Assembly: GCA_944323425.1 (NCBI GenBank)
Contig: CALUSL010000007.1
Location: forward strand, 1 to 64,000
Length of the DNA: 64,000 bases
Direction of reading: 5' to 3'
Source: Candidatus Gastranaerophilales bacterium
Lineage (GTDB): Bacteria; Cyanobacteriota; Vampirovibrionia; Gastranaerophilales; Gastranaerophilaceae
Shown here: in pieces, positions 11,759 to 40,054 of the stretch
Numbering within the stretch: position 1 is the stretch's first letter
Layout: every line of letters begins with the position of its first letter
Made by a program: the position numbers and the translations under genes
Notes under the pieces: model-generated
What the model was told of the DNA's origin: nothing
What the model saw: the letters and a program-made list of their open reading frames with translations, nothing else
The model's database searches: none

Positions 11759-12052
11759 CTATTTTTTAGCGCAAGATTTGCAGTTAACAGCTTCTTTGAA
11801 TTTTTTACCAGCTGAGAATGCAGGAACTGTTTTTGCTGCAATTTTGATTTCTTTACCTGTTTGAGGGTTGCGGCCTGTTCTTGCTGCTCTTTTTCTAGCT
11901 TCAAAAGTACCAAAACCTACTAATGTAACTTTTTTGCCTTTAGCAACAGTTTTTTCAACTGTTTCCATCCAAGCATTGATTACATCTGCAGCTTCTTTTT
12001 GAGTAACTTTAGCTTTTTTTGCAACTTCTTGTACTAATTCTTCTTTGTTCAT
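11759..12052 (-). CDS. hup: HU family DNA-binding protein
   Basis: 97 residues, a small nucleoid protein that bends and compacts DNA as a dimer. MNKEELVQEVAKKAKVTQKEA begins the helical dimer domain. GFGTFEARKRAARTGRNPQTG is the core of the beta-ribbon arm, and KIAAKTVPAFSAGKKFKEAV closes it. A short extra tail contains a CKSC pair, unusual for HU. A strong promoter (12087-12114) and an intrinsic terminator make it a single-gene unit with features of high expression. Confidence 0.96.
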   Translation of the reverse strand: MNKEELVQEVAKKAKVTQKEAADVINAWMETVEKTVAKGKKVTLVGFGTFEARKRAARTGRNPQTGKEIKIAAKTVPAFSAGKKFKEAVNCKSCAKK

Positions 12053-12114: not shown

Positions 12115-12226
12115 GTACTTTTTTTCCTCTATTTGTTGGTTTTTTAGTTTTATTTTTTAATTTTGTCTTTACTTTACGCCAAAATACCTCTAAAATGAGT
12201 ATTGTAAAAGAGTGGAGAAATGCTAC

Positions 12227-12862
12227 ATGAAACGAAAGAAAGCCTTTTCAATTGCTGAGGCGCTGATGGTTCTTCTTATAATGTCAATCATTGTTGCTGT
12301 ATCCATGCCGGTACTTACAAAAAAGTCCAGAAGAAAAACGACAAAAGTTGAGGCTGGTCTGTGGAAGGATTACAGGCATGAATTTATAGCTCCTGTTGAT
12401 AACAGAGATGTGGCTGTCGGAGATGATTCCCATGACAGAGGGCTGAGAGTTATTGGCAAACTTACCTTGAAAGATTTGTCCGGTCAACCTCTCGGATGGG
12501 TGAAAGATGACGGGTCTGTGTCTGTGAGCGCGCTTCATATAAACAAAAAACTTTTCATTCGAAACATGGACGGAGAAGATATTGGATGGATAAAAGATGA
12601 CGGTTCAAGTTCTTTCGACAATATACCACCCGGTATGATGATGACTTTTATCGGGCAGGAAAAGTGTCCTGACGGATGGATGCTGTCGAATGGAAGTATG
12701 GTTGGTACACAGTACGGACCGCAGATGACGCCTGATTTCACTGCTCTTCTTGCTCAATTGTCAAAAGCGCAGGGGCAGGAATCGAATATATCTATTTGTG
12801 TAAAATGTTCTCCGGAACAAAATTGTAAATATGAATCACTTAAAAAGAAAAGAAGGTACTAA
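12227..12862 (+). CDS. type IV pilin-like protein with tail-collar-like motif
   Basis: 211 residues from ATG 12227 (GGAGAAA upstream; an in-frame GTG at 12212 is less suitable). The prepilin N-terminus is KRKKA^FSIAEALMVLLIMS with Glu at +5 of the predicted cleavage site, then a hydrophobic helix to about 30. Residues 79-99 and 109-129 form an internal repeat, each ending GW(V/I)KDDGS. Residues 134-159 (PPGMMMTFIG..., then CPDGWMLSNGS) resemble the phage tail collar motif. The tail has four Cys. The class is secreted or assembled by type II/IV pilus machinery; the collar motif suggests a tip or receptor-binding role (inference). It is followed two bases later by a dCMP deaminase gene. Confidence 0.75.
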   Translation: MKRKKAFSIAEALMVLLIMSIIVAVSMPVLTKKSRRKTTKVEAGLWKDYRHEFIAPVDNRDVAVGDDSHDRGLRVIGKLTLKDLSGQPLGWVKDDGSVSVSALHINKKLFIRNMDGEDIGWIKDDGSSSFDNIPPGMMMTFIGQEKCPDGWMLSNGSMVGTQYGPQMTPDFTALLAQLSKAQGQESNISICVKCSPEQNCKYESLKKKRRY

Positions 12863-12864
12863 TT

Positions 12865-13338
12865 ATGATAAAACCATGGCATGAGTATTTTTTAGAGATA
12901 GCAAAAACATGTTCTACACGTTCAAACTGCTTTAGAGCGAAAGTAGGCGCTGTTATCGTAGGTGAGGACAAAAAAATTAAAGCAACAGGCTACAATGGCA
13001 CTCCCTCAAAGGTAATTTCATGTTATGAGCTTGGAAAATGCTACAGAATAGAGAACAATATTCCATCAGGTACCCGTTATGAAACTTGCAGAAGCATACA
13101 TGCCGAACAAAATGCAATTATTCAGGCTGGTCAGGACAGATGTAAAGATGCAACAATGTATATCTGGGGACATGAATTTATTTGTATTTTATGCAAGAGG
13201 TTTATTGTTCAGGCGGGGATAAAAGAGGTTTATCTGCAAAAGGATGAAAAATCACCGATGAAACATGTTCTTGTTGAAACGATAAGAGATGAGCTCAGTA
13301 ACCAAATTGAGCCTTTAACCAATACGTTAATGAAGTAG
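12865..13338 (+). CDS. dCMP deaminase family protein (ComEB-like)
   Basis: 157 residues of the zinc-dependent cytidine/deoxycytidylate deaminase family, which makes dUMP for thymidylate synthesis. The zinc site and catalytic Glu are in SIHAEQNAII (about 86-95). The second zinc motif is FICILCKRF, where the usual Pro of PCxxC is Ile. RAKVGAVIV and TGYNGTP are typical of the dCMP branch. Length is normal. It abuts the convergent MEMO-AMMECR1 gene with no space between the stop codons. Confidence 0.9.
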   Translation: MIKPWHEYFLEIAKTCSTRSNCFRAKVGAVIVGEDKKIKATGYNGTPSKVISCYELGKCYRIENNIPSGTRYETCRSIHAEQNAIIQAGQDRCKDATMYIWGHEFICILCKRFIVQAGIKEVYLQKDEKSPMKHVLVETIRDELSNQIEPLTNTLMK

Positions 13339-14691
13339 TTACTCATCAATATAGACTGTATGAAAACGGTAAGCGCGGAATGTTTTTGAAAAATAATCCG
13401 CCGGTAGTCCTGCTTTCTGTTTTAATGACTCCATAAACAGTTTTTTGTCAGGCAGCTGTACCCAGACAGAAGGCAGATACACAGCGCTGTAGTTTCCGTC
13501 CTGGATTATTATGCCGTCTTTGTAAGGTTCAATTTGTTCCATCAGGTCATTTTCATCGCTAAATTCAATAATTCCAGGCTCTGATAGCAATGAAACAGCA
13601 AGTTTTATTTGAGAAAATTCTTCCTCTGTAAGACCGGTAAATCTTGTATCAGAAAAAGCTGATTTGTATGCATTTTGGGCAAGGTCATTCAGCAAAGGTT
13701 TGTGAGCGAAAATTGAGCCCATACAACCTCTAAGCCGCTGGTTTAGAGTGATTGTTACAAAACATGCTCCCTGTTCGTAAAATACCTGCGGATACATCTT
13801 TTCATCAACATCAAGAGAGTTTCCTGTTTTGATTCCGGCATGGATGCTTTCTCTGCATATAGATAATACCAGATCTGAGAACTGTTCTTTGATGAATAAA
13901 GATTTTGTTTTTTCGGCAAGTATCCATGCACCGTAACCAACTACAGAATCATTTGGTCCTGAGATTTCGCCTGATGTTGTTAAATCTGTTCTTATCAAGG
14001 AATATGCTTTTGTTTTTGCAAATTGTACAAGCCCTATTATGCCGGTGCTTCCGCACGCTTGAAGAGGATGAAAGTCGGCAATGTTCTGTGATTCAATCAT
14101 TTCAGCCGTATATTCATCAATTTTTTGAGCGTCTTTTTGTGAATAAAAATGGCTCAGGTCGCTTGATATAATGAATGCATTGTCTTTATTTTCCCAGTAT
14201 TTTTCTATAATTTCTGTAATTTTCTGATACGGTATCTGACCGTATAATAGCGGTACTATCTGTGCTTGCGGAAGTATTTTTTGCAGAAAAGGCAGTTGTA
14301 CTTCAATTGAGTGTTCCTGCGCGTAGGCATCGTCCAGAAAGTCTGTTGTTTCATCATATGATATTTCATTTATTAAATCTTTATTTAATTTTATTTGACC
14401 GAGGGGCGTTTCAAAATAATCGTATGTTGATAGAGCAATACCCCTGAATTCAAGTCTATGGGCCGGCGCAATTATAAAAATATTTTTTACATTTTTGTTC
14501 AGGTACCCGAAAGCGGCTGCTGCTGTTTTTCCTGAATACATATATCCGGCATGGGGTACTATCATAGCACGTGTTTTTGTATTATATTCTCGGGTAGTTT
14601 GGATAAGGAGTTTTGTTATCAGTTCATCAAGTTTTTCCTGATTGTCTGGATAAAATTTTCCTGCAAATGCCGCTGTTTTTACTGTATCCAT
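13339..14691 (-). CDS. MEMO/AMMECR1 fusion (AmmeMemoRadiSam proteins B and A)
   Basis: 450 residues. Residues 1 to about 265 form a MEMO-family domain (TAAFAGKFYPDNQEKLDELI, MIVPHAGYMYSG, HSIEVQLPFLQ, SSDLSHF), a dioxygenase-like fold. Residues about 268-450 form an AMMECR1 domain (GCFVTI-like CFVTITLNQRLRGCMGS, DTRFTGLTEEEF, GIIIQDGNYSAVYLPSVW, KAGLP). In other genomes these are proteins B and A of a three-part system with a radical SAM enzyme, sometimes fused. No radical SAM partner is in the window. The molecular role is unknown. Confidence 0.9.
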   Translation of the reverse strand: MDTVKTAAFAGKFYPDNQEKLDELITKLLIQTTREYNTKTRAMIVPHAGYMYSGKTAAAAFGYLNKNVKNIFIIAPAHRLEFRGIALSTYDYFETPLGQIKLNKDLINEISYDETTDFLDDAYAQEHSIEVQLPFLQKILPQAQIVPLLYGQIPYQKITEIIEKYWENKDNAFIISSDLSHFYSQKDAQKIDEYTAEMIESQNIADFHPLQACGSTGIIGLVQFAKTKAYSLIRTDLTTSGEISGPNDSVVGYGAWILAEKTKSLFIKEQFSDLVLSICRESIHAGIKTGNSLDVDEKMYPQVFYEQGACFVTITLNQRLRGCMGSIFAHKPLLNDLAQNAYKSAFSDTRFTGLTEEEFSQIKLAVSLLSEPGIIEFSDENDLMEQIEPYKDGIIIQDGNYSAVYLPSVWVQLPDKKLFMESLKQKAGLPADYFSKTFRAYRFHTVYIDE

Positions 14692-39451: not shown

Positions 39452-40054
39452 TTAACGGGATATTGCGGATTGGTAGTAGCAAGGCGGATATTTACATTCA
39501 GCAGAGACTGAAGTATAGTCTTCGTTTGGGTATGGTAATGCTGTAATTGGTTTTTTGCTTCCGTCATTGTATTCTCCATCTTTGTCTGCAGAGAATATAC
39601 ACCAGCGGTCTTTTCCGAATTTGTTCGGTCCCTTCATCCCGTTTGTATCAACAGCAAATCCCCATACCTGATTTGTCGGCAGTGCCCAGGCTATACCTGA
39701 AATATCAACAAATACATTGTCAGAAGCCGGACATGGTCCCTGGTCGTCAGCGTTGTAATCCCAGCAGTCAGTTGCTGATCCGTTTTCTGAGCAATCTTTT
39801 GCTATATTAAAATATTTTTTGAAGTTGTCAAAAGATTTATTAATATTATTACGTTTATATGTATTTTCTGCATTCATTCTGTCAATTGTTTGGGCAAATA
39901 TAGAGACAGCTTTTTTGTACTGTGCGAAATATTGTTTGTCGTTTGTTGAATTATTGAGAGCCGGAATAGTGAGTGAAGCAATTACACCGATAATAACAAG
40001 GGTCGTCAATGCTTCTGCAAGAGTAAATCCGCTTTTTGTCTTAGTGCTTTTCAT
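39452..40054 (-). CDS. type II/IV pseudopilin-like protein
   Basis: 200 residues. The prepilin leader is MKSTKTKSG^FTLAEALTTLVIIGVIASLTIPAL, with Glu at +5 and a hydrophobic helix. A globular domain with several Cys follows (AKDCSENGSATDCWD, ECKYPPCYYQ). A segment DISGIAWALPTNQVWGFAVDTNGMKGPNKFGKD recurs in many such small pilins of this lineage (recollection, not checked). The substrate of a PilD-like peptidase and a type II/IV assembly system encoded elsewhere. GAGGAA ribosome site. Confidence 0.85.
   Translation of the reverse strand: MKSTKTKSGFTLAEALTTLVIIGVIASLTIPALNNSTNDKQYFAQYKKAVSIFAQTIDRMNAENTYKRNNINKSFDNFKKYFNIAKDCSENGSATDCWDYNADDQGPCPASDNVFVDISGIAWALPTNQVWGFAVDTNGMKGPNKFGKDRWCIFSADKDGEYNDGSKKPITALPYPNEDYTSVSAECKYPPCYYQSAISR

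Follow-up and report, generated by a model that had tools for sequence, protein, structure and literature searches.

The question raised by this locus is how a protein that begins as a type IV prepilin comes to end in a run resembling the collar domain of phage tail fibers, and what such an end may do. The window analyzed here is a stretch of 64,000 nucleotides from Candidatus Gastranaerophilales bacterium (contig CALUSL010000007.1, positions 1 to 64,000), and the preliminary description of it had pointed out a prepilin with internal repeats and a collar-like run, for which it guessed at a receptor-binding or tip role on a pilus. The observation was confirmed and its interpretation is partly supported. 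The reading we favor, with confidence slightly above even, is that the window protein belongs to the modular minor type IV pilins and bears at the tip a phage-tail-collar-related head, most likely an adhesive or adaptor head.

The reading frame starts with the ATG at 12227, runs uninterrupted to a stop codon at 12860-12862 and encodes 211 aa (Table 1). An alternative GTG start is present at 12212; the ATG has GGAG 5' of it and yields the canonical class III leader. The features by which type IV prepilins are recognized, namely a class III leader, cleavage before a phenylalanine, glutamate at +5 and a hydrophobic tract, are all present (MKRKKA/FSIAE), so that the standard prepilin leader described earlier was borne out, and the N_methyl model scored 17.1 bits on the protein, below its Pfam cut-off of 21.2. 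The gene is kept in 4/4 genomes of the genus that were searched, with identities of 81, 80 and 65% in the other three. The double GW(V/I)KDDGS repeat that had been reported is real as well, with GWVKDDGS at residues 90-97 and GWIKDDGS at residues 120-127. The two 23-aa units, starting at residues 78 and 108, have 11 identities, and their self-match score of 71 compares with a maximum of 32 among shuffles (0/1000 shuffles reached 71).

Table 1. Features of the prepilin gene and of the genes on either side of it, in positions of the window
Feature	Position	Strand	Remark
Whole prepilin, including both repeat units and the collar-like segment	12227..12862	+	211 aa, stop within coordinates
Class III leader MKRKKA with its cleavage site ahead of F7 and E at +5, then a hydrophobic helix extending to ~P28	12227..12310	+	
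Post-helix neck, GLWKDYRHEF..NRDVAVGDD..	12356..12457	+	Also present in collar-less orthologues from other genera
Repeat unit 1, KLTLKDLSGQPLGWVKDDGSVSV, residues 78-100	12458..12526	+	
Repeat unit 2, KLFIRNMDGEDIGWIKDDGSSSF, residues 108-130	12548..12616	+	Absent from four g6/g20 orthologues
Collar-like N-terminal segment, PPGMMMTFIGQEKCPDGWMLSNGSMVGT, residues 134-161	12626..12709	+	
C-terminal stretch (TPDF.., SICVKC)	12710..12859	+	Genus-conserved; proposed remainder of a reduced collar
HU-type DNA-binding protein gene	11762..12052	-	Divergent neighbor of the prepilin gene
dCMP-deaminase-like gene	12865..13338	+	Directly 3' of the prepilin gene; matched by the ComEB model at E 2.4e-22, under that model's cut-off

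Beyond the helix, the neck matched the collar-less orthologues L011-L014 with E values of 2.3e-9 to 4.8e-6 (phmmer, helix removed, Z=1000). Four orthologues from g6 and g20 (the g-numbers are genus codes within the family f1, which we take to be Gastranaerophilaceae) share this neck with the window protein and have a single GWI(A/S)EDG(S/T) unit, and neither the second repeat nor the collar motif was found in these four. Since the same neck and the same gene neighborhood go with another ending in g6 and g20, the outer end varies between genera at one orthologous site. The deaminase gene lies directly 3' of the prepilin gene in 8/8 loci examined, and an HU gene was listed 5' of it in 6/8, the two exceptions (L022 and L058) being loci where ORF picking retained a different frame. 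There is no pilus operon at the locus, where the prepilin gene sits between the HU and deaminase genes; four pilus-type ATPases of the T2SSE family and one prepilin peptidase are encoded away from it in the same genome. The window also holds another prepilin at 39455-40054 on the minus strand (matched by the ComGE model at E 1.6e-6, under that model's cut-off) and, at 13342-14691 on the minus strand, a single protein with AmmeMemoRadiSam B (MEMO1-like) and A domains. The window protein has the makeup of a modular minor pilin, that is, a pilin part with a grafted domain that is not pilus-specific, an assignment that hinges on the homology of its collar-like segment.

This segment begins with PPGMMMTFIGQEKCPDGWMLSNGS (residues 134-157). 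The Tail Collar family profile, which had been proposed as a check, did not recover it, as Pfam Collar (PF07484) scored 12.6 bits (E 0.14) against a curated cut-off of 24. When the whole genome was scanned with this model, another ORF, which reads as a membrane permease, scored 13.7 bits and the window ORF 11.7 bits; two of the genus orthologues scored 12.2 and 13.5 bits, both under the cut-off, and the third was without a Collar match. On its own, the Pfam match of the window protein is noise-level and no better than chance, and it was rejected as stand-alone evidence. The score under the cut-off, the better-scoring ORF elsewhere and the shortness of the matching stretch (~28 residues) all suit the rival explanation that this is a pilin with an odd head, in which a P.G..PDGW..(S/D)G run merely resembles a collar.

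A different picture emerges with collars borne by prepilins of other genera. A profile of 22 such collars, with the window's genus left out, gave 23.2 bits (E 3e-9, Z=1), which 0/10,000 shuffles reached (best shuffle 10.5), but the profile is incompletely independent of the window protein, with which L015 and L017 were found, and further rows came via an alignment containing the window's genus. Support from a strict profile of 12 prepilin collars found by Pfam alone was much weaker: the window protein scored just 11.8 bits (E 1e-5), a score reached by 1/10,000 shuffles, which leaves room for chance, but by 0/317 other window frames of at least 60 aa (best 8.3). A profile of 15 phage-like collars gave a weak 5.0 bits, with 19/10,000 shuffles as high, again in keeping with chance. 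A six-row mini-collar model built without the window's genus placed the window ORF at the top of its own genome (E 0.0285; the sole other match was at 0.251). In profile-profile comparisons, the window segment matched the mini collars with 35% probability and the phage-like collars (seven rows plus one L015 segment) with 75% probability, and the mini collars matched the phage-like collars with 96% probability.

Position and conservation likewise argue against chance. With its helix removed, the window protein aligns with prepilin L017 (E 7.8e-4, Z=1000) in a stretch that takes in repeat 2 and the start of the collar, and the match thus occupies an equal architectural position in the two proteins. 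The collar start is also the best-conserved outer region in an alignment of the four genus proteins (the window protein, L008, L009 and L010; residues 1-205, with L009 valid up to its stop), where 71% of it is invariant compared with 39-57% of other outer regions; four cysteines and KCPDGW are invariant in these proteins. Phage tail families were matched by the C-terminal part of L015 (E 8.8e-6) and by that of L017 (a tail-fiber family, E 2.9e-5), but none of the CPxGW prepilins L015, L017 and L137 has a Pfam Collar match, nor L137 a PHROG match. In these three a cysteine precedes PxGW and a cysteine also stands in the last strand; C147 and C191/C194 are the corresponding candidates in the window protein, a likeness that is suggestive only. 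The similarity of TPDF to the PDL/PDM motif was judged only by eye, a profile of the closing C-terminal strand failed to pick SICVKC of the window protein, and two AlphaFold predictions from three-row alignments had pLDDT values of 40.2 and 39.7. The first ~28 residues of the collar-like part are probably homologous to collar domains, and it is the bridging prepilins of other genera, not Pfam alone and not the structure predictions, that carry the argument; to that extent the collar-like motif reported for the protein stands. We regard a chance resemblance as unlikely.

In related genera, both examples tested read as clear prepilin-collar fusions. A 115-residue prepilin in g36 (N_methyl 4.8e-5, Collar 2.9e-9) and a 123-residue prepilin in g22 (N_methyl 1.6e-4, Collar 1e-14) exceed the Pfam cut-offs for both models. 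A collar alignment of nine rows, three of them from the window's genus, matched 38/383 family genomes, and the ORFs read revealed prepilin fusions in 26 of the 38 (g1, 4; g36, 15; g37, 2; g22, 3; g16, 1; g17, 1). A leader was not seen in the ORFs read from the other 12, among which G014 probably has a fusion, one of its two collar genes being truncated by a contig end. Two further g17 genomes (G054 and G019) have CPxGW-type collar prepilins, and two longer forms fall just below the Collar cut-off of 24, L111 at 22.4 bits with N_methyl over its cut-off and L113 at 23.2 bits with N_methyl under it. When 386 genomes sampled from the phylum were scanned, every match spanning both helix and collar was in this family, among the matches listed, for a model that misses fusions with an insert like that of the window protein. 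Prepilin collars may have had one origin or several: a tree built from only 57 columns for 46 rows needs 5 changes, but the AU test does not reject their forming one clade (p 0.065). The idea that phages themselves encode prepilin-collars was considered and rejected, given that 0/19 viral loci with related collars have a prepilin leader; a pattern match at L178 that suggested a viral prepilin was false and lies within a structural protein. The earlier remark that a collar on a type IV pilin is unusual agrees with the literature searched, where we found none, but within this bacterial family the fusion recurs.

The deaminase neighbor makes a Com-type minor pilin serving DNA uptake the chief alternative for the function of the window protein. 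The constancy of this neighbor at the loci examined and its match to the ComEB model fit such a role, and competence pilins give the leader its best scores, the ComGC model matching residues 4-45 at E 1.5e-4, below its cut-off and over the leader region only. The competence matches span nothing but the generic leader and helix, however, and ComEB-type deaminases are ordinary nucleotide enzymes, so we consider a role in DNA uptake quite unlikely. That the collar is a relic, a module gained by the ancestor of the genus and now decaying without function, is very improbable, for while its shortness, weak score and undetectable C-terminal strand would suit decay, the frame is open, the architecture is kept in all four genus genomes at 65-81% identity, and the collar start, with its invariant KCPDGW and the four cysteines, is more constant than the remaining outer part.

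If the window protein is a modular minor pilin, it would be exported and processed by the prepilin peptidase, which would cleave off MKRKKA, and the hydrophobic helix would then dock the mature protein terminally on a pilus or pseudopilus. The neck, the two repeat units and the reduced phage-tail-collar segment would be exposed at the tip, where the head on display would most likely act as an adhesin or adaptor and presumably engage a ligand; a tip or receptor role is plausible for such a protein. The collar-like part probably has common ancestry with phage tail-fiber collars, as do the clearer collars on prepilins of related genera, and its ultimate origin may have been in phages.

Collars are not the only modules on prepilins of the family. 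In a scan of 10 large prepilins, 6 had YadA_head over its cut-off, 2 had Peptidase_S74, 1 had Gly_rich_2 and 1 had N_methyl alone; in L140, Peptidase_S74 occurs together with a YadA_head match under the cut-off. S74 matches were present in 200/383 family genomes, but in 0/4 of those belonging to the window's genus. A leader was found in the S74 frame of 12 of 30 S74 loci inspected (by eye for L208, and leaving out L207, where the pattern match fell in an ORF other than the S74 one), and at 5 further loci of the 30 the place on the contig and the frame length coincide with prepilin matches of the phylum sample. The prepilins at L140:1486-2976 and L158:1459-2874 have the S74 tail-spike chaperone module and match phage tail-fiber/tail-spike families (L158 against phrog_4636, E 1.7e-25). 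The window's own genome has three large prepilins in succession on contig C10 (L056:9157-14108; 509, 480 and 631 aa). Their outer parts are rich in glycine, all three terminate in a (V/I)V(V/I)SW-like run, and Pfam gave no plausible outer domain for them. Modules of these types are trimeric in phages and autotransporters, which makes a trimeric pilus tip an attractive guess.

In two genomes, G290 and G323, the collar appears to be divided between two genes (pairs L096-L110). G290 has 13 prepilins with only the first part of a collar, dispersed in the genome and in 10/13 cases within ~1.1 kb of a contig end. A complete downstream partner gene could be read for 11/13, starting 0-18 nt past the prepilin stop, and at L099 and L100 the partner is cut by the contig end. 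In G323, 2/2 first-part prepilins have a partner, at 30 and 69 nt, the 69-nt start being uncertain. The partners are probably secreted, as their start resembles a signal peptide by eye; a variable middle follows, and then a tail that ends in VN(Y/F)IIKA and one or two further residues. Across the 11 pairs of G290, identity averaged 67% for the prepilin, 59% for the partner start, 20% for the middle and 70% for the tail. On a closing-strand profile from 18 collar-type proteins, 13 partner ends scored 14.2-16.6, compared with a best of 8.7 for 66 window frame ends and 7.7 for 1250 partner-middle stretches. The partner tail looks like the missing last strand of the collar, and the partner may close the collar fold of the prepilin. 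With at most nine candidates scored per genome, strong matches to the partner model were confined to G290 and G323 among 383 genomes, with three others near E 1e-3; no partner for the window protein was matched in the window genome (9/11 candidates scored), and no member of the partner family was found in viral contigs.

A broader proposal, which we put forward tentatively, is that the type IV pilus of this family is a carrier of phage-tail-fiber tips (collar, Gp10-like, YadA-head and S74 chaperone). The collar fold of one genus would be shared by a prepilin, which supplies the first part, and a secreted downstream protein with a variable middle, whose last strand would close the fold and clip the protein to the tip, so that each genome would have about a dozen adhesins to interchange; in this scheme the window protein would count as a reduced member. 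If this is true, an uncultured gut lineage equips its pili with modules that are elsewhere the property of phage tail fibers, the split collar is a directly testable two-protein clip presenting variable adhesins, and 'phage tail' annotations in these genomes may denote pilus proteins.

Modular pilins, including those with S74, have already been published. The closest precedents for the window protein are the Streptococcus sanguinis modular minor pilins PilB and PilC (PMC8179133, PMC9934059), in which a class III leader and helix likewise bear a grafted domain that is not pilus-specific; these are thought to be tip-located and adhesive, and their modules are a vWA domain and a ConA-like lectin domain, unlike the reduced collar-like segment found here. 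A 2021 survey of modular pilins lists 264 architectures, and the word 'collar' is absent from its main text (PMC8179133). The survey names a prepilin plus S74 architecture (IPR012902-IPR030392), read there as predicted peptidases. Those S74 prepilins have a tail-spike module on a prepilin, as is recurrent in this bacterial family, unlike the four genomes of the window's genus with their lack of an S74 match. Collar pilins and split-collar pairs were not found in print, within the accessible portions of the literature on tail collars and pilins, on pili of Gastranaerophilales/Melainabacteria and on S74 pilins.

On the phage side, the window segment shares with PF07484 and the T4-like short tail fiber the start P.G.(I/M)..F.G...P.GW....G, although, unlike the PF07484 collar, the window copy is without a detectable second half. 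A split-collar pilin of a relative matched 479 phage records, and among the 10 listed the annotation was short tail fiber/tail collar fiber (best E 4e-7). A receptor-binding fold common to phage tails and a pilus tip has a parallel in the C-type lectin domain that phage receptor-binding proteins have in common with a Bacteroides ovatus tip pilin (PMC10743442); the domain there is a different one, no type IV pilin with a collar is described in the available sections of that paper, and those of PMC5877343 contain no collar pilin either. The closest analogues of the split-collar pairs are CofB/CofJ and TcpB/TcpF, in which, according to the sections available of PMC9565799, a tip pilin is paired with a secreted protein borne by the pilus. 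CofJ and TcpF attach by an N-terminal tail, whereas in the split-collar pairs it is the C-terminal end of the partner that resembles the missing collar strand.
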